Positions 33,578-50,128 of a DNA stretch of 64,000 bases are shown here, piece after piece (within the stretch, counting starts at the first letter, position 1; each line of letters opens with the position of its first letter). The stretch is taken from positions 1,694,001 through 1,758,000 of the forward strand of contig NZ_CP027229.1 of the NCBI RefSeq assembly GCF_002999135.1. Direction: 5' to 3'. A model generated the notes under the pieces. That model made no database searches. It was not told the origin of the DNA and worked only from the letters and a program-made list of their open reading frames with translations. Source of the stretch: Capnocytophaga sp. oral taxon 878 (GTDB lineage Bacteria; Bacteroidota; Bacteroidia; Flavobacteriales; Flavobacteriaceae). Position numbers and translations under genes: made by a program.

Positions 33578-33594
33578 TTAAATAAAAACTCTTC

Positions 33595-34812: not shown

Positions 34813-34914
34813 ATAAAAATGCCTTTTAAAATATACTTTTCTAAAATAAATTACCTGCTTTTAGATCATTTGTAATAGCTAATATAGATATAAACCCTTA
34901 TAACAATTCGGCGA

Positions 34915-34945
34915 CAAATATAGAATGCTTTTGTAAAACTTCCAA
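34915..34945 (-). promoter_or_regulatory. Promoter for the 33595 propeller gene
   Basis: Minus strand: TTG at 34945-34943, 20-base spacer, TATATTTG at 34922-34915. Confidence 0.7.
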
Positions 34946-34994
34946 ATTTAAAATGTTAAAATTTAAGAGTCTTTTTAATTAATAGACAATAAAA

Positions 34995-35026
34995 AACTCT
35001 CTCATTCTTTTACGAATAAGAGAGTA
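34995..35026 (-). terminator. Terminator hairpin 3
   Basis: Stem CTCTCT/AGAGAG with the same loop region and a minus-strand T run, 56 bases after the stop at 35082. It forms the 3' part of the gene remnant at 34996-35055. Confidence 0.75.
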
Positions 35027-35055
35027 GTATAAATAGAAAATAAGATATATTTCAT
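34996..35055 (-). pseudogene. 5' remnant of a transglutaminase-like lipoprotein gene
   Basis: On the minus strand this begins ATGAAATATATCTT, as does the gene at 41900, and continues with the same TACTACTCTCTT, CGTAAAAGAATGAGAGAG stretch, with a small deletion that shifts the frame to a stop after about 17 codons (MKYILFSIYTTLLFVKE). Only the signal-peptide region survives. Confidence 0.7.
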
Positions 35056-35081
35056 TGTTTGAGGGGAAGTTAATCTTTTAG

Positions 35082-36122
35082 TTACAAATCTCTTAAATTA
35101 TACATTACAACATCATTACCTATTTTCTTATCATCAATAAGAGCATAAAGAGTATTCTCTTTTATTGTGATTGAAGTAACATTATAATCTAACTGTAACA
35201 TACTTATAGGTTTGCCTTCCCAATCGTATATGTGTACTATATTTCCTGCATAAAAAGCATTCTCAGGACTTTGTATTTTTCCAGAATACAGAGCAAAAAC
35301 ATACTTATCAGTAGCTGTTACTGATAAGTACCCCCAACGTGTTTTTTTAGTAGGAAGAAAGTTAGGGGTTCCTCCTATATTTTCTGTAGCAAATTCTGGA
35401 GAAAAATATTCTATACGATGTATTTCTTCTGCTTGTTTTTGGGCAGCATTCCATTCAAAAAACTGTATAATGCCACCATAACGTGTAGCTAAAGCAAATC
35501 TATTGCCATTAGGTTCCTTGCATATTTGGGATTGATAAGCCAATCCTAATACTTGGAAAGGTGTATTTGTATATGTTTCTTTATTAACAGGATAATTGCC
35601 TGTAGTTACAACATTTTCTCCTTGAGCATCCAATACTAAAAGTCTTTTTTTATCAGGGAAAAAACCACTTGCTATATAGTAAGGAGGTATTTCTATCACC
35701 GAGAGTATATAGCTTTCTTCTATTTGGAAAAGTTTTTTTGGATTTGTTTTTTTTGCAACAACACTATCCAAGTCATATTTCAAAAAACTCATTTTGCCAA
35801 AATCAAATACTTTAAAAGCATTTTGTTCAACAATGACAGCTCCAGGATTCATTAGTTCGTCTGGTCCTCCTCCTCGCGTGCCAAAATGATATGCTTGGTA
35901 AGGCTTTTTCAAGTCGATAGCTGTAAAAAGAGTTTTTGTATGCTCATCGTGGAGTAACAGTTTATCACCTACCATTTCTATTGAAAAGGCTTTTCCTAAT
36001 GAATCTCCAATGAACCAACGTTCACCGGTAAGCGTTAAAGTTTTAGGAAAGTCTTCTTTTTTAGAAGAAATATTGCAACTGCTTATAGTCATAGACAGAA
36101 GTAAATAAAATAATTCTTTCAT
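35082..36122 (-). CDS. BF3164/TolB-like six-bladed propeller lipoprotein
   Basis: A 346-residue lipoprotein: MKELFYLLLSMTISSCNISS (lipobox ISSC). The body shows AYHFGTRGGGPDELMNPGAV, FDFGKMSFLKYDLDS and, near the C-terminus, HIYDWEGKPISMLQLDYNVT, typical of the BF3164/TolB-like propeller group rather than the GQGPGE family around it. It follows the 36213 gene by 90 bases and may be co-transcribed with it. Function unknown. Confidence 0.75.
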   Translation of the reverse strand: MKELFYLLLSMTISSCNISSKKEDFPKTLTLTGERWFIGDSLGKAFSIEMVGDKLLLHDEHTKTLFTAIDLKKPYQAYHFGTRGGGPDELMNPGAVIVEQNAFKVFDFGKMSFLKYDLDSVVAKKTNPKKLFQIEESYILSVIEIPPYYIASGFFPDKKRLLVLDAQGENVVTTGNYPVNKETYTNTPFQVLGLAYQSQICKEPNGNRFALATRYGGIIQFFEWNAAQKQAEEIHRIEYFSPEFATENIGGTPNFLPTKKTRWGYLSVTATDKYVFALYSGKIQSPENAFYAGNIVHIYDWEGKPISMLQLDYNVTSITIKENTLYALIDDKKIGNDVVMYNLRDL

Positions 36123-36212
36123 ATATTTTTATATTTAAAAATTTCTACCTGCATAGTTGTAAGTAACATTGGCACCTTTTCTTTGTAGGGTAACGGAGGA
36201 GGATCTACAAAC

Positions 36213-37343
36213 TTACTTTATTTTTGCTGTAAATAACAGAGGATTATCATCTATTTTCAAATTAGAAAAAGGTTCTTCTACTTTTTGCTTACTATCTAAT
36301 AACCATTGAGTAGGTACTGTAAAAAGTACTTTATCATTTTGGGCAAAAAAGATGAAATCATTATCTTGAAAAGGAAGGGGTGTAGGAGTTGGTAAAAAAA
36401 CATCATCAATAATACTATCATAAGAAATAGAATGATGTGTAAGTTTATCATATTCCACTAAGTATTTCTTTCCTTTATAATAACACTGAAAAAAGAGTTT
36501 GTTTTCAGTTTCAAATACATTGTAAGTGCTATTCACATAATTGTGTTTCTTTATTTCCTGAAAAAATTCAAACACATTGGCAAAATGATGTTTTTCATAA
36601 AAACTAGTAGGTATATTACCTTCATAGTATGAAATAGCATATTTAGGTTCTAATTTGTTAGGTTGTAGGGTATAGATAGTATCATTAAAAGGTTCAAAGA
36701 ACAACAATTCGTTTTTTCTTTTATAAAAATTTATCAGGTTAAAGATATGCAGATATTTACTTTTATTTTTGTCTATTTCAGCAAAAGCAGCATTATGTTT
36801 AGGAGCTAATACTCTAAATTTGTATTTATTATTTTCATCTCGTTCATTACCATTGTAGACAAATAAGTTATTATCATTACGAATAAACTTAATAGCCAAA
36901 AAGTTTAGTGGAATTTCACTTAGGTATTTGTTGTTATAATCGTATTGTAGTATTTTTTTTTGATTTTTATCTAATACTTCTATTACTTGAAGATTATCAT
37001 CTACGAAAAAGTCAGAAATAGAGGTGTATTCGCCACGCCCTATACCGCAATGTTTAATAGTTTGTATTAGTTCACCTTTATAATTGAAAATGAGGATACT
37101 TTTATTACTTTCCAAAAACACTAAACTATCTGTAAAATTAATTTTAGCTTCAGGTTCAACTAGTATTGTATCTGATGTTTCTAAAGGGATAACTTCTATA
37201 TCTGAAAAAATATGAGAAAGATGAACAGGTTTATCTTCTAATTGTACTGAAATAGAAGTAAGTTCATCATCTTTGCTACTTTGAATATTACAACTAATCA
37301 TCAAAGTTACTAATAAATAGGATAATAGTATAATAAATTTCAT
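36213..37343 (-). CDS. Six-bladed beta-propeller lipoprotein, divergent
   Basis: A 376-residue lipoprotein: MKFIILLSYLLVTLMISCNI (lipobox MISC). It shows the standard Bacteroidota 6-bladed layout: IFSDIEVIPLETSDTILVEP, SILIFNYKGELIQTIKHCGI, then GRGEY. It is clearly separate from the six close paralogues. It has its own promoter at 37479-37509, in the shared cassette. Function unknown. Confidence 0.75.
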   Translation of the reverse strand: MKFIILLSYLLVTLMISCNIQSSKDDELTSISVQLEDKPVHLSHIFSDIEVIPLETSDTILVEPEAKINFTDSLVFLESNKSILIFNYKGELIQTIKHCGIGRGEYTSISDFFVDDNLQVIEVLDKNQKKILQYDYNNKYLSEIPLNFLAIKFIRNDNNLFVYNGNERDENNKYKFRVLAPKHNAAFAEIDKNKSKYLHIFNLINFYKRKNELLFFEPFNDTIYTLQPNKLEPKYAISYYEGNIPTSFYEKHHFANVFEFFQEIKKHNYVNSTYNVFETENKLFFQCYYKGKKYLVEYDKLTHHSISYDSIIDDVFLPTPTPLPFQDNDFIFFAQNDKVLFTVPTQWLLDSKQKVEEPFSNLKIDDNPLLFTAKIK

Positions 37344-37558
37344 TTCTTTATATTTTAAATTTTGCAGTGAAGAAGCGAACCAAAAATAAATAACACTCTT
37401 AAGTTCATTTTATCACCTCTTTAGATTGCTTTTTCTTATCTACAAACAAGAAAGACATAAGCCCTTATAATTTTGGGACAAATATAGAATGCTTTTGTAA
37501 AACTTGCAAATTTAAAATGTTAATTTTTAAGCGCTTTTTTAATTAATAGACAATAAAA
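37344..37558. other. Intergenic cassette with promoter
   Basis: Same modular layout as at 31.9-32.2 kb: leader, TATATTTG promoter, AAATTTAAAATGTTAA segment, then hairpin 4. No gene seen. Confidence 0.6.
37479..37509 (-). promoter_or_regulatory. Promoter for the 36213 propeller gene
   Basis: Minus strand: TTG at 37509-37507, 20-base spacer, TATATTTG at 37486-37479. Confidence 0.65.
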
Positions 37559-37590
37559 AACTCTCTCATTCTTTTACGAATAAGAGAGTT
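37559..37590 (-). terminator. Terminator hairpin 4
   Basis: Same 8-bp AACTCTCT/AGAGAGTT stem and T run on the minus strand, 58 bases after the stop at 37648. Confidence 0.8.
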
Positions 37591-37647
37591 ATATACATAG
37601 AATATTTTAGCTAAAAGGTTTTATGAGTAATACTTCCAAACAGAAAG

Positions 37648-38873
37648 TTAAAACTCTTTTAAAGTGAAATATACTAATATAGGGTTATCATCATCTTTAA
37701 AGTGTTTAGTTTTCTCTTTATCAGCCTTCGAAAGAAGAATATTATCTTTGAGAGTTTCATAATTATCTGAATGAGGCTTAAAAAAACTAATAAATTCATC
37801 GCCAAAAGTAGCTATAGGAAAAGCTATAAATGCAAATGATTTTTCTTTTGTACTTATAGAGCTATTACCTCCTATCATATTGCCTGTTTTCTTATCACGA
37901 TAAACTATACCTTCATAGTTTTTAAATTCATTTTGCACAAAAAAAGCATTCTGATTATAAGTTTCAAGGTAATCACCCAAGCAATAATAATAATCATTAT
38001 GATAAGCTGCTTTTTTAAAAACATCAAATGTATCGCCATAAATATATTTGCGAGGCAATTTTTTATCATAATCTAATACAAACTCTGCCGATAGCTTATT
38101 ATTCTTATAGTTATACTGATAAATAGTATCTGATATCTCTGAAGTTATCTTTACCAAATCACCTACCTTATGAAGGTAATTATTTGCAGAAAAGGCTCGT
38201 ATTTTTTTATGTTCGGGTAGGGCTACTGAATTCAGTTTAAAATTCTTTGTTGTAAATAGTAATCTGTAATTTTGTTTGTCTTCCATCTGGATATCACTTC
38301 GTCCTGTAAGTACTTTCATCACATAGCCTTTGGGAGTAACTGCTAAATTATAAAACCCCAAAGGCAATTTTTCTTGACGGAGATAATTACCTTGTTTATC
38401 AAAGAAAAGAAAAAACGAATGTTGGTATGCCACAAGCTCATTATTTTGAAAATCATAGTCGATATCATAAAGGCGTTGTAATTCACCAGGTCCTTGCCCG
38501 TGTGAAAGGCGTTTTACAAATTTACCATCTTTAGTAAAGATAATAATACTACCTTCTTTATATCTATCCATTATATAAATATACTCATCAGTAGTAATTA
38601 TTTTTTGAATATGATCTAATAGGCTTTTATTTGTAGTTTCTAAAGGTACAAGCCTTACCGTTTTTAATATGCTACCAAAATCAAATTCTTTTTCTTCTCC
38701 TAAAAAAGGATTAAGATTAAGATGTTTAGTTTGTGAGGTTTCAGGAGTTATGATTTGGGTATCATCCAACAGTAATGTCGCTATTTCTTCTTCAGTATAA
38801 CGACTCCCCGTCATTCTTCCTGTTTGCAGGCTACTAAAAATAAAACAAATAGAGAATTAATAACTTTTTTCAT
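37648..38873 (-). pseudogene. Frameshifted six-bladed propeller lipoprotein, subtype A
   Basis: The intact-looking signal peptide starts at ATG 38873 (MKKVINSLFVLFLVAC) but one base is missing directly after the lipobox Cys codon: paralogues read TGCCAAACAGG, this copy TGCAAACAGG (near 38825). The frame then stops after KQEE. The rest (388 codons from 38814, including GQGPGELQRLYDIDY and VYFTLKEF) is open and undamaged. A protein begun at the internal ATG 38814 would lack an export signal. Either a recent null allele, a reversible slip, or a sequencing error. Confidence 0.8.
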
Positions 38874-38909
38874 ATAAAGGTTTTATGAGTAATACTTCCA
38901 AACAGAAAA

Positions 38910-40130
38910 TTAAAACTCTTTTAAAGTGAAATACAACAATATAGGGTTATCATCGTCCTTAAACTGTTTGATTTTTTCTTTATCGGCCTCAGAAATATAT
39001 TTGCTGTTTTTTAAAACAGCATAATCATTAGCATCAGGGGTGTATAAGGAAACAAAATTATCACCCGCTACCGCTATAGGAAACCCAAAAAAAGGTATTT
39101 CACTACGATTAAAACTTGTTATGGCTCCTCCTATCATATTGCCCGTTCTTTTATCTCGAAAAATAATATTTTGATAGCCATTATAATAATTTTGGAGAAA
39201 GAATACATTTTGAGAAAATGTCTCAAGGTAGTCTCCTATATTAAAATAGCAATCATTATTTTGAGAATACCTTTCAAAAACACTAGAATCATCTCCGTAA
39301 ATATACTTTTTAGGAAGTTTTTTATCGTAATCTAAAACAAATTTGGTATATAGTTTATCCTTTTTTGCATCATATTTGTAAATACTATCAGAAAAATGCC
39401 CTGTTAAACTTATCAAACTATCATTTTTATATATATAATAATAAGCTGACAGTGCTTTTATATCTTTCGTTTGAGATATAGCTACAGATTCCAAACTAAA
39501 ATCAGTTTTTGTAAACAAAAAAGCATAGTTCTTTTTTTCATTTAGGTGTGTATTACCTTGTTTAGGAATAGCTTTGAATATATAGCCATTATCAACCGCT
39601 ATAAAATTATAAAAGTTAATAGGCAATCGTTCTTGACGAAGATAGTTCCCTTCTTTATCAAAAAACAGAAAAAAAGAATGCTGGAAAGCTATTAACTCTT
39701 TTGTATCAAAGTTATAATCAATGTCGTAAAGACGTTGCAGTTCGCCAGGTCCTTGACCGTGTGAAAGACGTTTTACAAATTTACCTTCAGCCGTAAAAAT
39801 GATAATACCTCCTCGTTTAAATCTATCGAATATATAGATATAGTTATCGGTAATAATAATCTTAAGAATTCCATCAACCAAACTTTCTTCTGTTGTTTCT
39901 AAGGCAACTAATTTTACTTTTTCTACCATACTACCTAAATCAAATTCCTTTTTCCCAAGAAAAGGAGTAAGATCTAAATGGGTAGCCATTTTTTCTTCAG
40001 GAACCAATATTTTAGTATCACCTAAATGCAGGGAGGCTATTTGTTGTTCAGTAAAACGAACCTCTTTAGGAGTGTTATTATGGCAGGCTACTAAAAATAA
40101 AACAAATAGAGAATTAATAACTTTTTTCAT
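38910..40130 (-). CDS. Six-bladed beta-propeller lipoprotein, A/B chimera
   Basis: A 406-residue lipoprotein whose signal peptide is subtype A (MKKVINSLFVLFLVAC) and whose mature part is subtype B (HNNTPKEVRFTEQQIASLHL, THLDLTPFLGKKEFDLG, KRLSHGQGPGELQRLYDIDY). The upstream leader is also subtype A. The switch falls at the lipobox Cys codon, as does the frameshift in the next copy. The body is close to the product at 44448. It lies between the O-antigen-ligase-like gene and the frameshifted copy. Function unknown. Confidence 0.82.
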   Translation of the reverse strand: MKKVINSLFVLFLVACHNNTPKEVRFTEQQIASLHLGDTKILVPEEKMATHLDLTPFLGKKEFDLGSMVEKVKLVALETTEESLVDGILKIIITDNYIYIFDRFKRGGIIIFTAEGKFVKRLSHGQGPGELQRLYDIDYNFDTKELIAFQHSFFLFFDKEGNYLRQERLPINFYNFIAVDNGYIFKAIPKQGNTHLNEKKNYAFLFTKTDFSLESVAISQTKDIKALSAYYYIYKNDSLISLTGHFSDSIYKYDAKKDKLYTKFVLDYDKKLPKKYIYGDDSSVFERYSQNNDCYFNIGDYLETFSQNVFFLQNYYNGYQNIIFRDKRTGNMIGGAITSFNRSEIPFFGFPIAVAGDNFVSLYTPDANDYAVLKNSKYISEADKEKIKQFKDDDNPILLYFTLKEF

Positions 40131-40304
40131 ATAAAATGGCTTTTAAAATATACTTTTCTAAAATAAATTACTTGCTTTTACATCATTTGTAACAGCTAAT
40201 ATTACTTCACTTGTATAAACTTCCTTAATAACTACTTTTATTACTAGTAATTAAATGTAAAATGCTTTCCTAAAAATTCAAAATGATTATATTATAAATA
40301 AAAC

Positions 40305-41900
40305 TCAATAACAATCTATAATAGTTTGGGCTTGTTTTCGCATTTCACTAATAGCAGGAGAGTATACTTTAATAGGAGTGTATAGCACCTTATTAGCTGC
40401 CCATAACAGTTTATTAGGATGATAATAAGCACTATCAGAATAGAGCTTAGTAAGAAGATAGTAAGGGTATATACGGTTAGGCAAAAGGTAAGTTGATTCC
40501 AGTAGAACAGCTTCTGCTTTGTCATATTGTTGCATTTGCTGGTAATTACGCCCTTGTAAATTGTAAAACATGGGGTCAGCACTGATGGCAAGTCCACGCT
40601 CAATTACTATATTAGCTTGGTGGTATTGAGCTACGGCATTAAGAATACTAGCATACTCAAATATAAAATTAGGATTACTATTAAGGGTGGGGTACAACAG
40701 AGTATAGTTGTTTTCTATGATCTCAAATTGCTTATTCCTATAAAGTATTGCTAGTTGTTGCCATTGCTTTTCTGCTTGGTGGTAGTTATAAAGTTTGGAA
40801 AAACAATAGATTATAGGTATTATAAAAACTATACTTGTCAACACCCCTAAAAAATATTTTTTACAGCTAATAACTTGGGAATGAGAACCTATACTAGCTA
40901 TAAGTACTATTGTTATAAGAAATTGCCACAAATAGAAGGGGTAAGAGGCAAAGGCAAAAGTAGCAAAGGCTATAAGAGCTCCTGCAGCTCCATATTGCTT
41001 ATTCTTCAGTGAATGGTAGAAAATAGAGATGAATAATAAGAGCCAAAGAAGTAAACCTAAAGCTCCTTGTTCTATCCATAGGCGGAGGTACTCATTAAAG
41101 GCATATTCAGGAACTCCAGCTACAGATTTCTCAATCTCAGTACCATTATTCTTAAAGTAGTTTTGTTGGGCAAGGGCATAATTATGGGCAAAGCTGCCCA
41201 ATCCTTCACCTACAAGCCCTTGCTGTATTGCCGCTTTGGTGCTTAGTTTCCATATCAAGAGTCTGCCATTAGCCGAGTCCTTTTTTAGTTGATATCCTCC
41301 ATAGGCAAGAGCTATGATAATAGTAGAAAAAATAAGAGAGATGTAAAAAAGTTTACTTTTAGGTTGCTTTTTTAACCATAAGCTAATGTGTTCCCATTGC
41401 ATTAGCAATAATACTATACCACAGCCTAACAAAGCTGCTATCCAAGCAGTGCGGCTAAGGGTAGCTGGCAACATTATTATATAAGGTATTAATAGGCTTA
41501 GAAACACATTATACCAAGGGCTTTTCTGGTGTTTTAACAGGTAAGTGTAGTGTATACCTAAAGGCAGTAATACAGCCAAAAAACCACCATAAGGTCCCGG
41601 GTTAAAGAAAGAACCTGTAATTTTAAAACGGTTATGACCTGCAGGTAGCCAACCATATAGTTGTGCCAAGCCCCATAAAGCTTCGGTACAGCCCCATAAT
41701 AAGAGGAATGTTATAGCTATTACAGTAGCTTTGCGGAAATAGCTAAACACAAGCCTCAGCAAGCCCCAACCACTAAAGCAGAGCAGGACTGCCCATAGTC
41801 CTTGTGGTGAAAGAGCTTGGGTATAATTATATGTGAAGAGAAAACACCCTAAAAGTAAAAGTGCTAAAAAAGAGGAAATATGTTTAGATTTTAGAGACAT
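40305..41900 (-). CDS. O-antigen ligase-like (Wzy_C) membrane protein with TPR tail
   Basis: A 531-residue polytopic protein with about ten or more membrane segments. The GSFFNPGPYGGFLA motif near residue 93 and the periplasmic loop NGRLLIWKLSTKAAIQQG then LVGEGLGSFAHNYALAQ are hallmarks of the O-antigen ligase/polymerase family, which transfers lipid-linked glycans in the periplasm. The last ~150 residues read as TPR-like helices (QQMQQYDKAEAVLLEST). Its ATG overlaps the transglutaminase-like stop by one base, so the two are coupled. Acceptor not predictable; could be protein or lipid. Confidence 0.8.
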   Translation of the reverse strand: MSLKSKHISSFLALLLLGCFLFTYNYTQALSPQGLWAVLLCFSGWGLLRLVFSYFRKATVIAITFLLLWGCTEALWGLAQLYGWLPAGHNRFKITGSFFNPGPYGGFLAVLLPLGIHYTYLLKHQKSPWYNVFLSLLIPYIIMLPATLSRTAWIAALLGCGIVLLLMQWEHISLWLKKQPKSKLFYISLIFSTIIIALAYGGYQLKKDSANGRLLIWKLSTKAAIQQGLVGEGLGSFAHNYALAQQNYFKNNGTEIEKSVAGVPEYAFNEYLRLWIEQGALGLLLWLLLFISIFYHSLKNKQYGAAGALIAFATFAFASYPFYLWQFLITIVLIASIGSHSQVISCKKYFLGVLTSIVFIIPIIYCFSKLYNYHQAEKQWQQLAILYRNKQFEIIENNYTLLYPTLNSNPNFIFEYASILNAVAQYHQANIVIERGLAISADPMFYNLQGRNYQQMQQYDKAEAVLLESTYLLPNRIYPYYLLTKLYSDSAYYHPNKLLWAANKVLYTPIKVYSPAISEMRKQAQTIIDCY

Positions 41901-43828
41901 TAACTTTTATTTTGTTTCAGTATCTTCTCTTCTTCAAAAGTAGGAAACACTTGTCTATTATCATAAAAGAAGAGCTGTTCTTCTTTGCCTCGAGTGAGGT
42001 TTTTAAGCCAAAGTACAGCATTCTTAGGAGCTTGAAAATACAATATTGGCAGATCACTAGCTTTTTGTATGCCCAATGACGTCCAACCTTTGCTACCATT
42101 ATTGTAAAAAAGCTCATAGTTATCACCTTCCCTAATAAAATTATCATCATTACGAGGGATAAGTATTACCTTGCTAACAAGTTGTGGGGTATTACTTTTA
42201 AAAAAAATACTTGTTCCAGTCTCCCACGTGTTAAAAAATGAGACAGGGTCGTTATCAGTACAATTCTTAAGTTGGTAAAGAGCTACATCTTTCCAAGGTT
42301 TTCCATTGCTATAGATAGTATCAAAAGTTATTTCACGATTATTTTTATTATAAAAATGTATTTCAGCTATAGAAAGCACTGAGTCTTTAGGTACTTCGTA
42401 CTGAAAGTAATGATAGGGTTTTGAGGGGTGTAGGGGGATATTGATCACATTTTCAGGAGGAAGCTTCTGCATTAAGTGTAGCCTTTCGGCAAAGGAAAAA
42501 TCAACCTGATTACTACCCTTTATTTGGGTGCCTAACAACCAGTTCTTATAGCGGGCAGTACTGTTTTTACGCAAAGGATACTTGCGGGTAAGAGCTACAG
42601 TCTGGTTTTCTTGTGGCTGAAAAATATGTACCTTACCTTTTTTTAACATAAAAGGATAGGCTATAGGAGTAAGCTTATTATTTTCATAACTAAGAGGTTG
42701 GTAGATAACAAAAGGCTCTATATTCTCAAAAATAGCAGAACTATTTTCTATTTTACCTTGTCCCACTACATACCAGCCATTGCGTGCTGTAAAAACACCT
42801 ATAAAAGCGTTTTTTGCAACTTTTTGTAGAGGAATATTCACTTGGTTTTTGCCAAAATACTCCTCAGTAACATCTTTTACAAAAGGATTGCGAAGTGTAG
42901 GAGGTAACATTTGTCGGTTAGTAAGTGCTCCTTGCCAAGCGTAGGTCATACGTTTTACTTTTCCTTTTTTGCGTTTGTCAGTAAAAGCAACATCACGGGT
43001 TGCAGCAAATTGTTCATACCAAAAAGGCAAGTATTTACCAGTAGTATCACGTAGTACATTCCATTCGTGTTTAGACTGGAATTCTGGAGAGTAAGGGTAA
43101 ATATCAGTAGTTACAGGTATACCTACAGAGCGCATCACATAGGTAGCAATATCACAAGCTTCACGACAAGTTCCTATATGCGTTTGTAACTGAAAAATAG
43201 CTCCTTGTCGTGGTATACCAAAATCTACAAAGTAGTAAAACTTTTCAGTTTTTAGGTAATTGGATAATCTATTACAAGCCTCTACTACATCTGTACCCTG
43301 ATAGAGGGAATCTAAGATAGGATTATACTTATCATAGTATCGTTTTCGCCATTGAGTAAGGGGTTCTTCGGCTATACGATAGGGCAGAATAAGTTCACAA
43401 AAATCATCAAAAGGCAAGTGTTTGTTCCAAGGTTTGGTTTGCCATACCGTAAATGCCAAATCTATATTCTCAATAAGCATAGCGGCAGTTACCTGCTGCA
43501 CATCGTGCTTTATTACAGGTTTTGAATGTTGTTGCCAACGTATACCTTTCTGGCGTTCTGCTTCCGTTAAATCCCATCGTTGGAATATATCACTTAGCAA
43601 GCCTTTAATACTATCTATTTCGGCACTTTGGGGGTAGCTGTAATAGGGCATATTTTCAATAAGATATACCGCAGCTTTGTATTTAAGGCTATCACCCTCA
43701 TAGTGTTGTAGTACTTTTTCTAATTCAGTACGGTTACTACCTGCTTGCTCTAAAGCAAAAGCTACTCTCTCATTCTTTTGCGAACAAGAGAGTAGTATAA
43801 GTAGAATAAGAAACAAGATATATTTCAT
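41900..43828 (-). CDS. Transglutaminase-like lipoprotein
   Basis: A 642-residue lipoprotein with lipobox LLSC (Cys15). A transglutaminase-like core is visible: THIGTCREACDIATYVMRSV (Cys221 as nucleophile candidate) and SKHEWNVLRD (His254), with an Asp nearby (DTTGKYLPF). The C-terminal half is beta-rich (STVRYKNWLLGTQ-like) and not recognised. The superfamily includes crosslinking enzymes, proteases and inactive members. The first codons contain the hairpin sequence that recurs as terminators downstream of other propeller genes. It is coupled to the genes on both sides (10-base gap and 1-base overlap). Confidence 0.75.
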   Translation of the reverse strand: MKYILFLILLILLSCSQKNERVAFALEQAGSNRTELEKVLQHYEGDSLKYKAAVYLIENMPYYSYPQSAEIDSIKGLLSDIFQRWDLTEAERQKGIRWQQHSKPVIKHDVQQVTAAMLIENIDLAFTVWQTKPWNKHLPFDDFCELILPYRIAEEPLTQWRKRYYDKYNPILDSLYQGTDVVEACNRLSNYLKTEKFYYFVDFGIPRQGAIFQLQTHIGTCREACDIATYVMRSVGIPVTTDIYPYSPEFQSKHEWNVLRDTTGKYLPFWYEQFAATRDVAFTDKRKKGKVKRMTYAWQGALTNRQMLPPTLRNPFVKDVTEEYFGKNQVNIPLQKVAKNAFIGVFTARNGWYVVGQGKIENSSAIFENIEPFVIYQPLSYENNKLTPIAYPFMLKKGKVHIFQPQENQTVALTRKYPLRKNSTARYKNWLLGTQIKGSNQVDFSFAERLHLMQKLPPENVINIPLHPSKPYHYFQYEVPKDSVLSIAEIHFYNKNNREITFDTIYSNGKPWKDVALYQLKNCTDNDPVSFFNTWETGTSIFFKSNTPQLVSKVILIPRNDDNFIREGDNYELFYNNGSKGWTSLGIQKASDLPILYFQAPKNAVLWLKNLTRGKEEQLFFYDNRQVFPTFEEEKILKQNKS

Positions 43829-43837
43829 AAGTGGCTT

Positions 43838-44446
43838 TTAGTTAAAGAATTTTGCTTGCACTGCCTCTAAATATCTCTCATCTATAGAAGGTGAACCTTT
43901 ATCGGGTACAAAAACATTTAGTACTGTAAGAGTACTATCTATTACAAAATAGTAAGGATAGCCTAATTCTTCTGCTGGAAGGGGTAAAGCTGTTACATTA
44001 GCAACATTTAAACTATCTATTTGGTAAGTAGGTTTTAATTGATTGAAAAGCATATTATTTCTATACCCACCCAAGAAAAGTACGTTTTCAGCTTTGAGTA
44101 TAGGCAGCTTGTTTTTGAGCATTTGTATAGAGTAGTTCACACAGCTCTCGCAGTTGTTTTCCAAAAACCTACTTACTATCAGGTATTTTTGCCCTTTGTT
44201 AAAAAAGGCTTTTAGGGGAATTAGTGTACTTCTACTGTCTTTTACAAGCTCCTCACCTAAATTAAAACCTATATTATTAAGGGTAATTTCAGTAATTTTT
44301 TCAATAGACCGTTTAGTTGTAAGCTGCTCTCTTAAGGCAGTTATAACTACAGCTGTTTGCTTTTTGAATTGGTAATAGTTTATTACAAAACCTATCATTA
44401 CCCCTAATAAAATCAAAAATAAAAGATATAACAAATTCTTTTTCAT
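43838..44446 (-). CDS. Membrane-anchored CxxC (thioredoxin-like) protein
   Basis: A 202-residue protein with one N-terminal membrane segment (about 5-24) and a periplasmic domain. Its FLENNCESCVNYSIQ motif (Cys99, Cys102) follows a KYLIVSRFLE strand, as in thioredoxin-fold redox proteins, and GYPYYFVIDSTLTVLNVFVP looks like the cis-Pro region and last strand. It may reduce or shuffle disulfides in the four-cysteine NVEALA peptide encoded upstream; that is inference. It begins one base after the propeller stop. Confidence 0.7.
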   Translation of the reverse strand: MKKNLLYLLFLILLGVMIGFVINYYQFKKQTAVVITALREQLTTKRSIEKITEITLNNIGFNLGEELVKDSRSTLIPLKAFFNKGQKYLIVSRFLENNCESCVNYSIQMLKNKLPILKAENVLFLGGYRNNMLFNQLKPTYQIDSLNVANVTALPLPAEELGYPYYFVIDSTLTVLNVFVPDKGSPSIDERYLEAVQAKFFN

Positions 44447-44447
44447 T

Positions 44448-45671
44448 TTAAAACTCTTTTAAAGTGAAATACACCAATATAGGATTATCATCGTCCTTAA
44501 ACTGTTTGATTTTTTCTTTATCGGCCTCAGAAATATATTTGCTGTTTTTTAAAGCAGCATAATCATTAGTATCAGGTTTGTATAAGGAAACAAAATTATC
44601 ACCCGTTACCGCTATAGGAAACCCAAAAACAGGTATTTCAGTACGATTAAAACTTGTTATGGCTCCTCCTATCATATTGCCCGTTCTTTTATCTCGAAAA
44701 ATAATATTCCGATAGCCATTATAATAATTTTGGAGAAAGAATACATTTTGAGAAAATGTCTCAAGGTAGTCTCCTATATTAAAATAGCAATCATTATTTT
44801 GAGAATACCTTTCAAAAACACTAGAATCATCTCCGTAAATATACTTTTTAGGAAGTTTTTTATCGTAATCTAAAACAAATTCGGTATATAGTTTATCCTT
44901 TTTTGCGTCATATTTGTAAATACTATCAGAAAATTGCCCTGTTAAACTTATCAAACTATCATTTTTATATATAAAATAATAAGCTGACAGTGCTTTTATA
45001 TCTTTCGTTTGAGATATAGCTACAGATTCCAAACTAAAATCAGTTTTTGTAAACAAAAAAGCATAGTTCTCTTTTTCATTTAGGTGTGTATTACCTTGTT
45101 TAGGAATAGTTTTCAATATATAGCCATTATCAACCGCTATAAAATTATAAAAGTTAATAGGCAATCGTTCTTGACGAAGATAGTTCCCTTCTTTATCAAA
45201 AAACAGAAAAAAAGAATGCTGGAAAGCTATTAACTCTTCTGTATCAAAGTTATAATCAATGTCGTAAAGACGTTGCAGTTCGCCAGGTCCTTGACCGTGT
45301 GAAAAACGTTTTACAAATTTACCTTCAGCTGTAAAAATGATAATACTTCCTCCTTTAAATTTATCCAATATATAGATATAGTCATCGGTAGTAATAATCT
45401 TATAAATTCCATCAACCAAACTTTCTTCTGTTGTTTCTAAGGTAACTAATTTTACTTTTTCTACCATACTACCTAAATCAAATTTCTTTTTCCCAAGAAA
45501 AGGAGTAAGATTTAAATGGGTAGCCATTTTTTCTTCAGGAACCAATATTTTAGTATCACCTAAATGCAGAGAGGCTATTTGTTGTTCTGTAAAACGAACC
45601 TCTTTAGGAGTGTTATTACAAGAACATAAATATAATAATCCTATTATGTATAATATATAATATTTGTGCAT
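44448..45671 (-). CDS. Six-bladed beta-propeller lipoprotein, subtype B (in the NVEALA operon)
   Basis: A 407-residue lipoprotein: MHKYYILYIIGLLYLCSCNN (lipobox LCSC). Then TPKEVRFTEQQIASLHLGDT, HLNLTPFLGKKKFDLG, KLVTLETTEESLVDGIYKII and KRFSHGQGPGELQRLYDIDY, ending VLVYFTLKEF. It follows the NVEALA gene and precedes the CxxC gene by one base, so it is the only propeller copy still in a full operon context. Probably the parent of the subtype B copies elsewhere. Function unknown; a binding or docking role for the peptide is speculative. Confidence 0.83.
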   Translation of the reverse strand: MHKYYILYIIGLLYLCSCNNTPKEVRFTEQQIASLHLGDTKILVPEEKMATHLNLTPFLGKKKFDLGSMVEKVKLVTLETTEESLVDGIYKIITTDDYIYILDKFKGGSIIIFTAEGKFVKRFSHGQGPGELQRLYDIDYNFDTEELIAFQHSFFLFFDKEGNYLRQERLPINFYNFIAVDNGYILKTIPKQGNTHLNEKENYAFLFTKTDFSLESVAISQTKDIKALSAYYFIYKNDSLISLTGQFSDSIYKYDAKKDKLYTEFVLDYDKKLPKKYIYGDDSSVFERYSQNNDCYFNIGDYLETFSQNVFFLQNYYNGYRNIIFRDKRTGNMIGGAITSFNRTEIPVFGFPIAVTGDNFVSLYKPDTNDYAALKNSKYISEADKEKIKQFKDDDNPILVYFTLKEF

Positions 45672-45704
45672 AACAAAAAAACATTAAAATAATCAAACAA
45701 AGAG

Positions 45705-45762
45705 AAGCCCGAAAAGTTTTTGTATTTAATAAATAAATCTTTTATTAAAACTTTTCGGACTT
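45705..45762. terminator. Hairpin between the NVEALA and propeller genes
   Basis: AAGCCCGAAAAGTTTT (45705-45720) pairs with AAAACTTTTCGGACTT (45747-45762) with one G-T wobble around a 26-base loop, five bases beyond the NVEALA stop. The T8 run lies on the plus strand; on the minus (gene) strand only CTCTTTGTTT follows, so in the operon it may act as a partial terminator or a message-stabilising hairpin. Confidence 0.65.
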
Positions 45763-45766
45763 TTTT

Positions 45767-46141
45767 TTAACACTCTATCTCTGAGCAATTAACTTCTCCT
45801 ACAGGGCAGGTTATTTCTTTCCTAATATAAGGATTGTATTGAGAATCGTAACCTTCCACAGAACCTGATACTCCTCCATACCCGCCAGAAACTTTTCCTC
45901 CGGACTCTTTATTTGGACAATTACGTTTCCATTCTCTTTCATCTTTAGTCCATCCCTGACCTTTTAAAGTGTTACCAACTCCATCCCAAAAGCCCCATTC
46001 AGAGCTACTTAATGCTTCCACATTACTTAATGTCAAGTTTTGTAAAACATCATTTTCACTGTTAAGCTTTTTGCTTACACCATAACCACTTACTGCACTG
46101 ACAGCAAGAACTACTAAACTTGTGATAATTTTTCTTTTCAT
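45767..46141 (-). CDS. NVEALA-family exported peptide
   Basis: A 124-residue precursor. The N-terminus MKRKIITSLVVLAVSAVSGY is a hydrophobic leader; then VSKKLNSENDVLQNLTLSNV and EAL, which contains the NVEALA-type signature (here NVEALS). The mature part is Gly/Ser-rich (SGGKVSGGYGGVSGSVEGYD) with four cysteines: one in KRNCPNKE and three near the C-terminus (ITCPVGEVNCSEIEC). Such small proteins are known only from Bacteroidota, are often found near propeller lipoproteins, and have no established role. It has its own promoter at 46272-46302. Cleavage near the NVEALS motif is a guess. Confidence 0.82.
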   Translation of the reverse strand: MKRKIITSLVVLAVSAVSGYGVSKKLNSENDVLQNLTLSNVEALSSSEWGFWDGVGNTLKGQGWTKDEREWKRNCPNKESGGKVSGGYGGVSGSVEGYDSQYNPYIRKEITCPVGEVNCSEIEC

Positions 46142-46501
46142 TTTTTTTAATTAAATTTAGATTAACATTTCTTTATTTTTGCACTGTTTTCATATAAGGA
46201 GATAACTCGTAGCTTAGCTATCTATTTACCTTAAGTTAAGACAAATATAAATCCTTGTAACAATTTCGCAGCAAAGATAAAACACTTTATTAAAACTTCC
46301 AAATTTTAAATGTTAAAATTTCAATATAAATTATAGGATATATAAAGAGGTAAATAGTAAAGCTCTGAAAATTAATAGTTTGTAAATTGCATTTGTAATC
46401 TTTTTTTTTGTTTATTATCTGATGCAAAAAAAAAGAAAAGCAAACGCATAGCCGTTAATTTCTTTTTATAGAACTAAGAAAAAGCATACTATACGATTTT
46501 T
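46142..46501. other. Promoter region of the NVEALA operon
   Basis: The 360-base gap contains the NVEALA promoter, a second TATATTTG-like element (46242-46249) without a well-spaced TTG, and A/T runs near 46401-46440. No gene seen. Confidence 0.6.
46272..46302 (-). promoter_or_regulatory. Promoter for the NVEALA operon
   Basis: Minus strand: TTG at 46302-46300, 20-base spacer, TATCTTTG at 46279-46272, about 130 bases before the NVEALA ATG. The AATTTGGAAGTTTTA context is shared with the cassettes at 32.1, 34.9 and 37.5 kb. Confidence 0.7.
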
Positions 46502-47377
46502 TTACCTAACTACTTTTAAGAACCGTTCCCAGCGAAACTCGTTTGTATTGAGATTTACTGCTTTCCAAATAAACCATACCTTACCAGCTATATACTCATC
46601 GGGAATGAGGCCTATATAACGAGAATCACGTGAATTTAGCACATTATCGCCTGCCATAAAGTAATAATTGTGCTTAAAAGTATAATGAGTAAGGGGAGTC
46701 TGGTCTTGCCATAAGGTATCACGCTCCCAGCGTAGGGGGCATTCAGTTTCCCATTCAATAAGTTTTTTATACAGTAAGCTTTCGGTGCGATGAAGGGTAA
46801 GCATATCACCTTTTTTAGGAAGATAAAGTCCTCCAAAATCTTTAATTGTCCATCCTACAATACTATCCCAAGGAAAAGCTTCATACTCTACACCTTTCAG
46901 TTGTTCACGGCTAAGGCTATGTAACTGTTGCTGTGCTGGATAATAACCTAATGTATCGGGTAGGTGATTCACACTGTAAAAGCCTTCCTTAATATATAAG
47001 GTATCACCAGGCAGAGCTATGCAGCGCTTAAGATAGAATTTTGCAAATTCCATTTGTATTTGCTGGTTATTATTAGGGTAAGGATTATTGAACACCACTA
47101 CATCATTACGTTGTATATTCTGGTAACCTGGTAATCTATTTATATTGGTGCGCTTACCTGTTGCTACTTCAAAAATATCGTACCAACGTGGACCATAGGC
47201 TAACTTATTTACTAATATATTATCACCAGGAATGAGAGTAGGCATCATTGAGTGTGTGGGTATTTTGTATGAATCAACTACAAAAATACGTAATAGGAAA
47301 TATCCTACTCCTATCATTAGTAAGTAGAAGAAAATATCAAAAGATATTTTTAAAATTTTTACTATTCTTTGCTTCAT
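46502..47377 (-). CDS. lepB: Signal peptidase I
   Basis: A 291-residue S26 signal peptidase that removes signal peptides on the outer face of the inner membrane. One N-terminal membrane segment (about 12-35), catalytic Ser43 in IPTHSMMPTLIPGD, catalytic Lys117 in YLKRCIALPGD, and boxes D/E in MAGDNVLNSRDSRYIGLIPD. At 291 residues it is shorter than the ~500-residue LepB of many Bacteroidota, so it may be a second, specialised copy. It is the third gene of pyrB-BASS-lepB with short gaps, and the NVEALA gene follows 360 bases downstream. Confidence 0.92.
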   Translation of the reverse strand: MKQRIVKILKISFDIFFYLLMIGVGYFLLRIFVVDSYKIPTHSMMPTLIPGDNILVNKLAYGPRWYDIFEVATGKRTNINRLPGYQNIQRNDVVVFNNPYPNNNQQIQMEFAKFYLKRCIALPGDTLYIKEGFYSVNHLPDTLGYYPAQQQLHSLSREQLKGVEYEAFPWDSIVGWTIKDFGGLYLPKKGDMLTLHRTESLLYKKLIEWETECPLRWERDTLWQDQTPLTHYTFKHNYYFMAGDNVLNSRDSRYIGLIPDEYIAGKVWFIWKAVNLNTNEFRWERFLKVVR

Positions 47378-47391
47378 ATAAATCCTTTATC

Positions 47392-48258
47392 TCACTTTTT
47401 TATCCTTATAGTTACAATGGCAAAGGCAAACGTAGTAAAAAATGAAAAGATAGCATATACTAATGCTGGCTTGGTCATATTGGCATTACCCAATAGGGTA
47501 CCTGCTACCAAAATTGCCAAAGCTGTATTCTGCAGCCCTACTTCTATGCTTATAGTTGTAGCTTGTACTCCTGAAAGTTTGGACTTTAAGGCAATAAAAT
47601 AGCTGCATATCATAGCTATTAGGTGCATTAGGAGGGTAGCTGGCAGAAGTCGCCATATTTCATCGACGGAAATACCACTTCCTCCTGACTCGGTACCGCC
47701 AAAAAACTTAATGGCAAAGACCATTCCTAACAAAATAGTATTAACTACCTTTAAGGGGAAACGTATTTTAAGTGATATATTGGGGAAAAATCGGTTAAAG
47801 AAGAGCCCTAACAAAGCGGGTATAATTATGACTTTGGCTACCTCCCATACCATATCTATAATGGGGAGTGATACTTGTGTGTGTCCTCCCATAAAAATCT
47901 CTAATGCCCAGTTGGAAAGCACGGGGATGGTGAGGAGTATGAGCAGGCTATTGACTGCTGTAAGGGCTACTGCCAAGGCTGTATCGGCCTTTATAAGGTA
48001 GCTAATAAAATTGGATGTTGTGCCTCCTGGGCATATTGAAACTATTACCAAGCCTACTTTTTCGGCTGGTGATAAGTTCATAAACTCGGCGATTATAAAG
48101 GCGCAGATAGGCAAAAATACCATCTGCAAGAAAAGCCCTAAGTACAAGGGCTTTGATTTCTTAAATATATTCTCAAAATCAGAAAAACGCAGTGAGCTAC
48201 CTATTGCAAAGGTAATAAGCATCAGCACTGCTGAAAGCAAGTAATCTATAAAATTCAT
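47392..48258 (-). CDS. Bile acid:sodium symporter (BASS) family transporter
   Basis: A 288-residue membrane protein with about nine to ten segments. Family landmarks are VSICPGGTTSNFISYLIKAD (first crossover motif) and ISIEVGLQNTALAILVAGTL (second). Members of this family transport bile acids, pantoate or other organic anions with sodium; the bacterial substrate is unknown. It lies 24 bases after pyrB and 14 before lepB in one apparent operon, though no functional link is evident. Confidence 0.87.
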   Translation of the reverse strand: MNFIDYLLSAVLMLITFAIGSSLRFSDFENIFKKSKPLYLGLFLQMVFLPICAFIIAEFMNLSPAEKVGLVIVSICPGGTTSNFISYLIKADTALAVALTAVNSLLILLTIPVLSNWALEIFMGGHTQVSLPIIDMVWEVAKVIIIPALLGLFFNRFFPNISLKIRFPLKVVNTILLGMVFAIKFFGGTESGGSGISVDEIWRLLPATLLMHLIAMICSYFIALKSKLSGVQATTISIEVGLQNTALAILVAGTLLGNANMTKPALVYAIFSFFTTFAFAIVTIRIKK

Positions 48259-48282
48259 TTTTTATTTGCGAATGAAGGGGGG

Positions 48283-49218
48283 TTAGGCTTGGGGTTGTAG
48301 CTTTTCGGCAAGTAAGTAAATAACAGCCATACGTATAGCCACTCCATTTTCTACCTGTTGCAATATAACGGATTGAGGGCTATCTGCCACTTCACTAGTA
48401 ATCTCGACTCCACGGTTAATAGGGCCTGGGTGCATAATGAGAATCTCTTTATCCAATGATTTGAGGAGCTCCATTGTAAGCCCATACTGTTGTACATATT
48501 CACGTGTGGAAGGGAAATAACTTATATCTAAGCGCTCGTTTTGTATGCGTAGCATATTGGCTACATCGCACCAGTTGAGTGCTTTGCGCAAGTTGGTTTC
48601 TACCTTTACCCCAAGGGTATGTATGTATTTGGGTATAAGGGTTTGTGGGCCACATACCATTACCTCGGCCCCTTGCTTGTGTAGGGCGAAAATGTTGGAA
48701 AGTGCAACCCTTGAGTGCAATATATCGCCTACTATTACTACTTTTTTACCAGCTACATCGCCCAAGCGTTCGCGTATGGAGTATGAGTCCAACAAGGCTT
48801 GTGTAGGATGCTCGTGGGCACCATCGCCGGCATTGACAATGGCAGCTTTGACGTGCTGGGACAAGAACACTCCGGCACCGGGGTTGGGGTGGCGCATCAC
48901 TACCATATCGACTTTCATTGAGAGGATATTATTGACGGTATCGACCAGTGTTTCGCCTTTGGTAACTGATGATTGTGAAGCTGAAAAATTAATGACATCG
49001 GCTGAGAGGCGTTTTTCGGCCAATTCAAAAGAAAGGCGGGTGCGGGTGCTATTCTCAAAAAAAAGATTTGCAATGGTAATATCACGCAGTGAAGGCACTT
49101 TCTTTATGGGGCGGTTGATGACCTCCTTAAAATGGTCGGCTGTTTGAAATATGAGCTGAATATCAGCCTCAGTAATATATTTAATACCTAAAAGATGGTT
49201 TACACTTAATTGGCTCAT
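48283..49218 (-). CDS. pyrB: Aspartate carbamoyltransferase catalytic subunit
   Basis: Second step of pyrimidine synthesis: carbamoyl phosphate plus aspartate to N-carbamoylaspartate. The 311-residue product has the carbamoyl-phosphate loop FFENSTRTRLSFELAEKR (STRTR at 57-61), GAHEHPTQALLD and LIMHPGPINRGVEI near the C-terminus. I start at ATG 49218 (MSQLSVNHLLG); a longer frame to 49275 would overlap the promoter. carA, which supplies carbamoyl phosphate, is 11 kb away on the other strand. No pyrI follows. Confidence 0.95.
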   Translation of the reverse strand: MSQLSVNHLLGIKYITEADIQLIFQTADHFKEVINRPIKKVPSLRDITIANLFFENSTRTRLSFELAEKRLSADVINFSASQSSVTKGETLVDTVNNILSMKVDMVVMRHPNPGAGVFLSQHVKAAIVNAGDGAHEHPTQALLDSYSIRERLGDVAGKKVVIVGDILHSRVALSNIFALHKQGAEVMVCGPQTLIPKYIHTLGVKVETNLRKALNWCDVANMLRIQNERLDISYFPSTREYVQQYGLTMELLKSLDKEILIMHPGPINRGVEITSEVADSPQSVILQQVENGVAIRMAVIYLLAEKLQPQA

Positions 49219-49245
49219 TGTTTTGATTTTTGTTAAGCGATTGTG

Positions 49246-49275
49246 CAAAGGTACAAAACAATTTTCAATTGGCAA
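49246..49275 (-). promoter_or_regulatory. Promoter for pyrB operon
   Basis: Minus strand: TTG at 49275-49273, 19-base spacer, TACCTTTG at 49253-49246, 28 bases before the pyrB ATG. Confidence 0.7.
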
Positions 49276-49469
49276 GGAACAATAACATTTTTAACACACG
49301 TTGTTCTTTTTGCCTACTGGCAATTGGTGAATTTAGCTAGGAAATAAGAGGTAAAGAGGGGGTGGTACTTGATGGCGGGAAGAGATATGCTATACTGGCG
49401 AGATACTTAGCTGTGGCAGCTTGGTGAGTATCCTTCGCAACATACTTAGCTGTGGTAGCTCGGTAACTA

Positions 49470-49512
49470 TCCTTCGTTTATAGTTCGTTTATCCTTCGTT
49501 ATTCGTTCGTTC
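49470..49512 (+). repeat. 43-bp dispersed intergenic repeat, copy D
   Basis: Identical to copy E; relative to copy A the third unit reads TTTATCCTTCG. Upstream of and co-oriented with lptE. Confidence 0.85.
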
Positions 49513-49585
49513 GGCTTAAAAGGCGGTTGGGAGGGGCTTGTGGTAGAAGGGGTATTGGCTGGTGGTTGGCTAAACGAAGTATTTT

Positions 49586-49615
49586 TTGCTTATTAAGAAA
49601 AATATCGTATCTTTG
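49586..49615 (+). promoter_or_regulatory. Promoter for lptE
   Basis: TTG at 49586-49588, 19-base spacer, TATCTTTG at 49608-49615. This shows that lptE starts at 49637 and not at the upstream TTG. Confidence 0.7.
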
Positions 49616-49636
49616 CCCCCTGAAATTGAAAAAACA

Positions 49637-50128
49637 ATGAAATATCTCATATATATATGCCTCGCCTTTAGTACCCTTAGTTGTGGCATCTATAACTTTA
49701 CTGGCGGAAGCACTGGAAATGCCAAAACCTTTCAGGTAAATTTTTTCCGTAATGACGCTCCGCTTGTAGAACCAGGCCTTGATAGGGACTTTACCATTGC
49801 CCTGCAAGACCTTATCAATAACCAAACCAACCTGAGCCTTACCAACCGCAATGCGGACTTAGTGTACGAGGGCGAAATAGTGGAATTTAACATTACCCCT
49901 ATGACTGCTACCGCCCAACAAACAGCTGCACAAAACCGCGTAACTATAAGCGTAAATGTACGCTTTACCAACCATACCGAAGAAAAAAAAGATTTTGAAA
50001 AGCGCTTCTCTTTTTACTACGACTATCCTGCGGCAGCACAGTTCAATGCTGTAAAAAATGAAGCTATACCTCAAATCTTTGAGCGCATTACACAAGACAT
50101 ATTTAACGCATCACTGGCAGACTGGTAA
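49637..50128 (+). CDS. lptE: LptE-family LPS-assembly lipoprotein
   Basis: A 163-residue lipoprotein (MKYLIYICLAFSTLSCGIYN, Cys16). The body matches Bacteroidota LptE: NFTGGSTGNAKTFQVNFFRN, PLVEPGLDRDFTIALQDLIN, ADLVYEGEIVEFNITPM, RVTISVNVRFTNHTEEKKDF and the terminal ITQDIFNASLADW. LptE plugs the LptD barrel and helps place lipopolysaccharide in the outer leaflet. The neighbours TPR-like, secG, groES and groEL follow in the order seen in many Flavobacteriia (from memory). Confidence 0.88.
   Translation: MKYLIYICLAFSTLSCGIYNFTGGSTGNAKTFQVNFFRNDAPLVEPGLDRDFTIALQDLINNQTNLSLTNRNADLVYEGEIVEFNITPMTATAQQTAAQNRVTISVNVRFTNHTEEKKDFEKRFSFYYDYPAAAQFNAVKNEAIPQIFERITQDIFNASLADW

Follow-up and report, generated by a model that had tools for sequence, protein, structure and literature searches.

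An NVEALA peptide gene run in Capnocytophaga belongs to a recurrent Bacteroidota gene set and may export and mature small cysteine-paired peptides

Gene run around an NVEALA precursor

We analyzed a 64,000-nucleotide stretch of the genome of Capnocytophaga sp. oral taxon 878 (contig NZ_CP027229.1, positions 1,694,001 to 1,758,000; the whole stretch is called the window), in which a minus-strand gene run encodes an NVEALA precursor peptide, a 6-bladed beta-propeller lipoprotein, a membrane-anchored CxxC protein, a transglutaminase-like (TG) lipoprotein and an O-antigen-ligase-like (OAL) membrane protein (Table 1). A preliminary description, made from the sequence alone, had presented these five genes as a compact exported-peptide system. 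The open reading frame (ORF) list of the window bears out their strand, order and positions, together with a 1-base gap between the propeller and CxxC genes and a 1-base overlap between TG and OAL; the gap between CxxC and TG is 9 bases rather than the 10 that had been given, and 95 bases separate NVEALA from the propeller. The limits drawn at the time, 40305..46141, proved too narrow, since they leave out a signal peptidase I gene, the next gene directly upstream of NVEALA, and eight propeller/TolB-like genes on the other side. The gene unit is larger than five genes, and the upstream signal peptidase I belongs to it. The description also missed the pairing of NVEALA with the propeller and the hairpin between the two; what it observed is confirmed, and its interpretation holds up in part. 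The nearest named relatives of the window TG and CxxC proteins are from Capnocytophaga, and a further genome of that genus, G006, shares its TG gene with Capnocytophaga canis (L004 and L013).

Table 1. Features of the gene run and of the neighboring propeller array, in window coordinates (aa, amino acids).
Feature	Position	Strand	Basis
Signal peptidase I, 291 aa, short clade of these modules	46502-47377	minus	PF10502 109 bits; TIGR02227 111.8 bits
Promoter-like box, Bacteroidota type, TTTG-N20-TATCTTTG, upstream of NVEALA	46272..46303	minus	pattern match
NVEALA precursor peptide, 124 aa	45767-46141	minus	PF14055 27.1 bits (cut-off 27), marginal
NVEALS codons, with the predicted cut following Ser45 (Ala at -3, Ser at -1)	46007..46024	minus	motif conservation and -3/-1 rule
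RNA hairpin between NVEALA and propeller	45705..45762	minus	-19.2 kcal/mol, z -3.13, 0/200 dinucleotide shuffles as stable
6-bladed beta-propeller lipoprotein, NVEALA-paired	44448-45671	minus	PF17170 72.8 bits
Membrane-anchored CxxC protein, 202 aa, CESC at 99-102	43838-44446	minus	no Pfam or NCBIfam match
TG lipoprotein, C-terminal carbohydrate-binding-like domains	41900-43828	minus	no Pfam or NCBIfam match of its own
OAL membrane protein, TPR tail	40305-41900	minus	PF04932 (Wzy_C) 49.6 bits (cut-off 31.7)
Eight further propeller/TolB-like lipoprotein genes, tandem	29283-40130	minus	Pfam for four; other four by identity to these
Array genes, first four	29283-30509, 30682-31902, 32225-33520, 33595-34812	minus	ORFs
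Array genes, last four	35082-36122, 36213-37343, 37648-38814, 38910-40130	minus	ORFs

Recurrence of the gene set in Bacteroidota

A genome-neighborhood survey of the kind that the preliminary description had proposed revealed that these genes recur together across Bacteroidota, so that the description's refuting condition, a lack of co-occurrence beyond close strains, does not hold. The best 80 of 214 confirmed TG matches yielded 78 loci, of which 77 were used in the neighbor count and 45 had 8 kb on both sides (full-flank loci); ORFs came from a simple caller favoring long ORFs, and the family models were built in three iteration rounds on the same loci that were counted. In the 45 full-flank loci, the same-strand genes within 8 kb of TG included a propeller in 39, OAL in 34, NVEALA in 33, a redox protein in 32 and a short signal peptidase in 23, with OAL present in all 23 of the latter. 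The short peptidase also formed the largest cluster among the unlabeled same-strand neighbors of TG (34 genes at 33 of 86 TG-bearing loci, a set that holds some places twice, L004/L013 and L005/L040; two later stretches, L097 and L149, overlap L048 and L019).

A tally of 121 genomes, inferred to be Bacteroidaceae, gave a similar picture. The short peptidase is found in 25 of them, and OAL accompanies it in 25/25 compared with 21/96 of the other genomes (Fisher p 1e-13), while TG occurs in 23 of the 25 and an NVEALA match in 19. Within 10 kb of 29 peptidase places (copies above 200 bits, with G394, a split copy, added; the count leaves aside L143, which is truncated and adjoins OAL, and G418, of 151 bits) lay OAL in 22, TG in 21 and NVEALA in 19, with a chance expectation of about 0.54 for OAL. 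Chance or strain-specific grouping was rejected, given the 22/29 observed against 0.54 expected and the recurrence across loci and genomes. Entered in the tally were 110 of 112 listed NVEALA places (without one in a 988-aa frame and one abutting match), 46 of 47 OAL genomes (without one that had an 83-residue match only) and 41 of 59 TG genomes (without 13 that had only weak matches in frames of 870-945 aa, and five fragments); with four of the five fragment genomes added, the association of short peptidase and TG has p 2e-10. Outside Bacteroidaceae NVEALA is rare: among 247 genomes sampled evenly over the class, 5 had a match. Among 100 relatives of the window's genome, counting that genome too, TG was found in 8.

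Gene fusions tie three of the components to each other. In two genome bins (L068, 854 aa; L069, 843 aa) TG carries the short peptidase as an in-frame fusion at its N-terminus, and in a third bin (L070, 1013 aa) OAL is fused at that position. Pfam reads the L069 protein as Peptidase_S26 with a sub-threshold Transglut_core and the L070 protein as Wzy_C with F5_F8_type_C, Transglut_core not being listed. On the strength of these fusions we argue that peptidase, TG and OAL work together.

The complete set is also carried by a plasmid, pPvulCL10_1 of Phocaeicola vulgatus CL10T00C06, whose public annotation gives in a row an NVEALA protein, a 6-bladed propeller, a redoxin-domain protein, lepB, an O-antigen ligase family protein, a hypothetical protein and a transglutaminase-domain protein. 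Our family models match all seven, the hypothetical protein as a piece of TG. The four plasmid records with the short peptidase are all from Phocaeicola and all typed non-mobilizable. For NVEALA, propeller, OAL and TG, a P. dorei plasmid shares its protein accessions with pPvulCL10_1, which indicates exchange between species; the P. dorei set is interrupted by two transposase genes, one of them IS612B. At a Capnocytophaga canis locus (L013), OAL and TG lie close together with no NVEALA or propeller gene beside them, and between the two are genes for a 285-aa lipoprotein-like protein with a C-terminal Cys and a 65-aa membrane protein.

Features of the peptides and their partner proteins

The leader, NVEALS signature and four cysteines ascribed to the window peptide are all present: an N-terminal hydrophobic segment is followed by NVEALS at residues 40-45 and by a predicted mature part of 79 aa that holds the cysteines. 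The peptide matched no Pfam family other than PF14055. The motif pattern is present in 123 of 142 unique NVEALA ORFs. For 96 of them N.EAL. is the first match, and the residue that follows EAL is Ala (87), Ser (6) or Thr (3); because the pattern preset position -3 to Ala or Val, only this last residue is a free test. Signal peptidase I cuts where small residues stand at -3 and -1. Ala, Ser or Thr after EAL fits that rule, from which we infer a cut after NVEAL(A/S), presumably by the dedicated peptidase. In some peptides the pattern took upstream strings (e.g., KSDVMS), so that their 'mature' parts come out too long. Of 101 unique peptides, 83 have an even cysteine count after the motif, where 50.6 would be expected (p 2e-11, valid only if the peptides are independent, which related ones are not), and the export and disulfide pairing proposed earlier look right in this light. 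The predicted mature parts are acidic (median net charge -2; +2 or more in 3/101) and mostly 30-60 residues long. NVEALA matches reach 19 per genome in some gut Bacteroidales. The window's genome has a second NVEALA-like gene (NIETLA; L002, C1:2022027-2022191), which falls under the Pfam cut-off and precedes a DUF1573-like lipoprotein (likeness by eye), not a propeller.

The short peptidase retains the catalytic dyad, Ser43 and Lys117, in all 49 aligned copies, and the window peptidase profile aligns with the signal peptidase I structure 9nlo across both residues. In a tree of 78 peptidases, 50 short copies including the window's fall on one branch (support 100/100), separate from 18 housekeeping peptidases, a second clade of eight short copies and a long-branched Flavobacteriaceae copy (L011). 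The window's genome also has a separate 519-aa signal peptidase, taken here as its housekeeping enzyme. That the short peptidase is itself the housekeeping one was rejected on both grounds. Closest to the window copy in the tree are peptidases of Tannerella forsythia and Proteiniphilum, which suggests that it was acquired by gene transfer. In another Capnocytophaga genome (G006), a stop-bearing remnant of the short peptidase adjoins an NVEALA gene.

Both cysteines of the CxxC protein are invariant in 9/9 close relatives, and in 12/12 when more distant ones are added. Elsewhere its slot is filled by a ResA/StoA-like lipoprotein, present in 29 of the 45 full-flank loci versus 6 for the CxxC protein. 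An hhalign comparison assigned the two a probability of 0.2 percent, and the CxxC family profile had no match when searched against the PDB. The iterated CxxC model also caught two ResA/StoA-like lipoproteins (L033, L085), and the protein annotated as 'redoxin domain-containing' on pPvulCL10_1 matches the window CxxC model at 9.7e-42.

The Cys/His core described for TG is indeed kept, with Cys221 and His254 each in 208 of 209 proteins. The catalytic Asp of transglutaminases presumably lies about 16 residues after the His; TG has Asp there in 10/209, and Trp270 in the window. At two other columns Asp is common (172/209 each), which means that TG could still be active. The C-terminal part of TG matches the carbohydrate-binding structures 2yb7 (E 1e-9) and 5g56 (E 8e-8), its core weakly matches the transglutaminase 6g49 (E 0.2), and some relatives carry PF01841 or PF00754. 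In three relatives of 928-955 aa (L145, L146, L147), about 300 extra residues are inserted ahead of the catalytic core; the insertion of L145, which was the one scanned, contains a ricin-B-like lectin domain. In an alignment of OAL with the solved ligase 7tpg, the His-Asn of the ligase corresponds to Phe-Asn in OAL, Phe268 taking the place of the His. Across 62 OAL proteins this position is Phe in 57, Tyr in 2, Leu, Asn and Ser in 1 each, and never His. R150 and R213 are kept in 61/62, R213 being placed by the 7tpg alignment and R150 by spacing only.

The placement of the lipoproteins was also considered. In Capnocytophaga canimorsus, the accessible part of PMC5080379 gives the surface signal as K-(D/E)2 or Q-A-(D/E)2, with an optimum of C-X-K-(D/E)2-X and K not seen at +4. 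By eye, this export signal is absent from the nine lipoproteins checked, namely eight Cys-bearing propellers and TG, the latter reading C-S-Q-K-N-E. With the signal on 0 of nine, a periplasmic orientation of the set is more likely than exposure at the cell surface.

These residues and signals bear directly on the pathway first proposed, in which, at the cell surface, the transglutaminase crosslinks the exported peptide and OAL glycosylates it or joins it to a glycan. Such a pathway is consistent with the conserved Cys and His of TG, with the two arginines of OAL, with the carbohydrate-binding-like domains, including the ricin-B-like one in the single relative scanned, and with the frequent position of O-glycosylating PglL genes beside their target gene (21/31 in the available portion of PMC3643930). 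However, R215, R288 and H338 are important in Escherichia coli WaaL and common to PglL (PMC3643930, same portion), and glycan ligation by OAL is not supported because the catalytic His is absent in 62/62. Transglutaminases use Cys, His and Asp according to an extract of PMC3507681, and with the usual Asp in only 10/209, crosslinking is likewise not supported despite the near-invariant Cys and His. Nor is surface placement supported by the lipoprotein N-termini. We therefore consider this pathway unlikely.

The NVEALA gene is closely tied to the propeller. Counting genes of 100 aa or more within 600 bases, the one that comes next after NVEALA is a propeller on the same strand in 121 of 142 cases, the other followers being a ResA/StoA-like lipoprotein (6), an unlabeled gene (8), an opposite-strand gene (2), another NVEALA (1) and none or a contig edge (4). 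The median gap between NVEALA and propeller is 70 bases. Folding of 75 gaps of 30-300 bases, drawn from 116 NVEALA-propeller pairs, gave a hairpin z below -3 in 60 (60 mononucleotide shuffles); by this method the window gap has z = -2.9. The hairpin is a possible attenuator or partial terminator, and a stem-loop after the precursor gene would yield more peptide than propeller. At one locus (L145) five NVEALA genes stand in tandem before a single propeller, so one-to-one pairing of peptide and propeller is not universal.

The promoter-like pattern TTTG-N20-TATCTTTG has 12 matches in the window versus 3.78 expected. Near-identical boxes lie at 37479, 34915 and 32055 (minus strand), each before a propeller unit, and near-identical terminator-like hairpins at about 37590 and 35025. 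Within the tandem array, the gene at 29283-30509 is only 25-29% identical to the four with Pfam matches. Identity reaches 97% between the stretches 38910-40080 and 44448-45618 and 89-91% in three further pairs over 1.2-1.3 kb, a pattern that suggests duplication or gene conversion in the recent past. The 450 bases preceding each of the eight array propellers contained no NVEALA-like motif. The ORF at 37648-38814 starts without a lipobox, with a lipoprotein leader just upstream in another frame (by eye), and the gene looks broken. The ORFs at 32225-33520 and 29283-30509 have 20-30 extra N-terminal residues that resemble fused NVEALA leaders by eye, and the motif pattern was not found there.

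At 21062-26522, same-strand genes for an outer-membrane efflux protein and an RND-type adaptor enclose four small genes, and none of the ORFs between the two reaches RND-pump size. RND efflux genes lie near TG in 14 of the 45 full-flank loci. We kept efflux genes out of the model because no RND-pump-size ORF is among the window ORFs listed (at least 110 aa in 14000-35200, at least 40 aa in 36000-50000; a pump search was not run) and the nearest adaptor is at 25416-26522.

A candidate peptide export and maturation module

We propose, with moderate confidence, that the gene set is a module, recurrent in Bacteroidota, that exports and matures small cysteine-paired peptides, with a dedicated signal peptidase cutting the NVEALA precursors. 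The precursor would pass through Sec and be held at the inner membrane by its N-terminal hydrophobic segment. Cleavage after NVEAL(A/S) by the dedicated signal peptidase I, whose gene lies upstream here and inside the run at other loci, would free an acidic peptide, mostly of 30-60 residues and of 79 here, into the periplasm. The CxxC protein, or the ResA/StoA-like lipoprotein in other species, would set the peptide disulfides, and TG and OAL, each of which lacks a defining residue of its namesake, may join the peptidase in a membrane-bound complex. Each peptide would have its own propeller lipoprotein as cognate partner, be it receptor, chaperone or immunity protein, probably made in lower amount through attenuation at the hairpin that follows the peptide gene. 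The computations show the recurrence of the set, the fusions, the catalytic residues, the adjacency of NVEALA and propeller and the hairpins; the place of the cut, release into the periplasm, the disulfide step, attenuation, the complex and what the propeller does are proposed. A broader formulation, which we put forward only tentatively, is a class of envelope machine not described before in Bacteroidota, in which a complex of peptidase, His-less WaaL fold and transglutaminase fold would cut, fold and pass on disulfide-paired peptides, each recognized by its own propeller, the gene set being spread by plasmids as well. The probabilities given here to the different readings are not mutually exclusive.

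Several observations weigh against the proposed module. The motif ends a median of 25.5 residues past the hydrophobic segment, and ordinary signal peptides are cut closer to that segment than this; a housekeeping enzyme could instead cut small-x-small triplets near the end of the segment, closer to the membrane. According to a warning from the tree program, long branches come together where the 50 short copies split from the second short clade. Only 23 of the 45 full-flank TG loci contain the short peptidase. In the 121-genome tally, 6 of 25 NVEALA genomes are without the short peptidase and 6 of 25 peptidase genomes are without a Pfam NVEALA match, so the link between the two is strong, not strict. 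Among 20 Capnocytophaga genomes (two less than 90% complete), an intact short peptidase is present in the window's genome only, and two others hold NVEALA genes with no intact copy. Co-divergence of peptide and propeller gave a Pearson value of 0.511 in a first test, driven by near-copies, and shrank after thinning to 96 pairs to a Spearman value of 0.093 for the mature part, against a within-locus null of 0.034 (standard deviation 0.017; 0/400 shuffles as high). The leader has an equally high raw value, 0.095 (null 0.078), reached by 74/400 shuffles, and we give co-divergence little weight.

One alternative is that NVEALA peptides are matrix or fiber subunits processed by a peptidase of their own, in the way that SipW processes TasA and TapA, and that the propellers and TG act as assembly factors. 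The mature peptides are short, acidic and cysteine-paired, unlike TasA, and in a test for TasA-like substrates the window peptide matched PF14055 and no other Pfam family. The signal peptidase does share a gene run with its presumed substrate, five NVEALA genes stand in tandem at L145, and SipW itself offers a precedent (PMC4292775, available part), but on balance we find this explanation improbable. About equally improbable is that the short peptidase is a travelling companion serving other exported proteins, while NVEALA proteins stay membrane-anchored or are processed by the housekeeping enzyme. The six NVEALA genomes without the short peptidase and the two Capnocytophaga genomes with NVEALA and no intact copy would agree with it, yet the in-frame fusion of peptidase and TG in two genomes, the position of the peptidase within 10 kb of OAL at 22/29 places and of NVEALA at 19/29, and the stop-bearing remnant next to NVEALA in one Capnocytophaga speak for the dedicated enzyme. 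Least probable of all is an antibacterial toxin with the propeller as immunity or receptor protein, for although a propeller follows most peptide genes, the set is plasmid-borne and patchily spread, and the co-divergence of mature part and propeller, weak as it is, exceeds its within-locus null, the mature parts are acidic (+2 or more in 3/101), the eight further window propellers have no NVEALA-like motif in the 450 bases before them, and the genome has just one other NVEALA match.

The literature searches, in which coverage of subscription journals was thin, found no published function for NVEALA genes and nothing evidently linking NVEALA or propellers to a dedicated signal peptidase, OAL or TG. 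The NVEALA proteins and 6-bladed propellers belong to families already annotated by Pfam and NCBI. P. vulgatus CL10T00C06 has a barcoded transposon library and deletion methods (PMC13114119, available part), and the main text of that paper contains neither the component names nor the locus tags. The module is common to many gut and mouth Bacteroidota, and its tie to a dedicated peptidase makes the role of NVEALA concretely testable. If the proposed module is true, it would constitute a system for peptide export in the human microbiota, in which the WaaL and transglutaminase folds serve a new purpose.

The module was compared with several known systems. Bacteroidetocin-type peptides have a double-glycine leader, whereas the window leader ends in NVEALS with no Gly-Gly there (by eye). 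TG shares with TgpA-type transglutaminases a core with Cys and His and the weak profile match to 6g49, which we take to be TgpA. TgpA is a membrane protein; TG, by contrast, is a predicted lipoprotein in which the usual Asp is mostly missing and C-terminal carbohydrate-binding-like domains are present. SipW is a signal peptidase of the endoplasmic reticulum-like type, while the module peptidase has a Ser/Lys dyad. With PglL and WaaL, OAL shares the PF04932 domain, both functional arginines and, as for PglL, a gene near the presumed acceptor (PMC3643930, available portion), but it differs in the loss of the catalytic His in 62/62, in its C-terminal TPR tail and in its position beside TG or, in one genome, fused to it. 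Finally, the tapA-sipW-tasA operon of Bacillus likewise encodes a dedicated signal peptidase together with its own exported substrates (PMC4292775, same part); in the present set the peptidase is accompanied by TG-like, OAL-like, redox and propeller proteins, and what it presumably cuts are short cysteine-paired NVEALA peptides.

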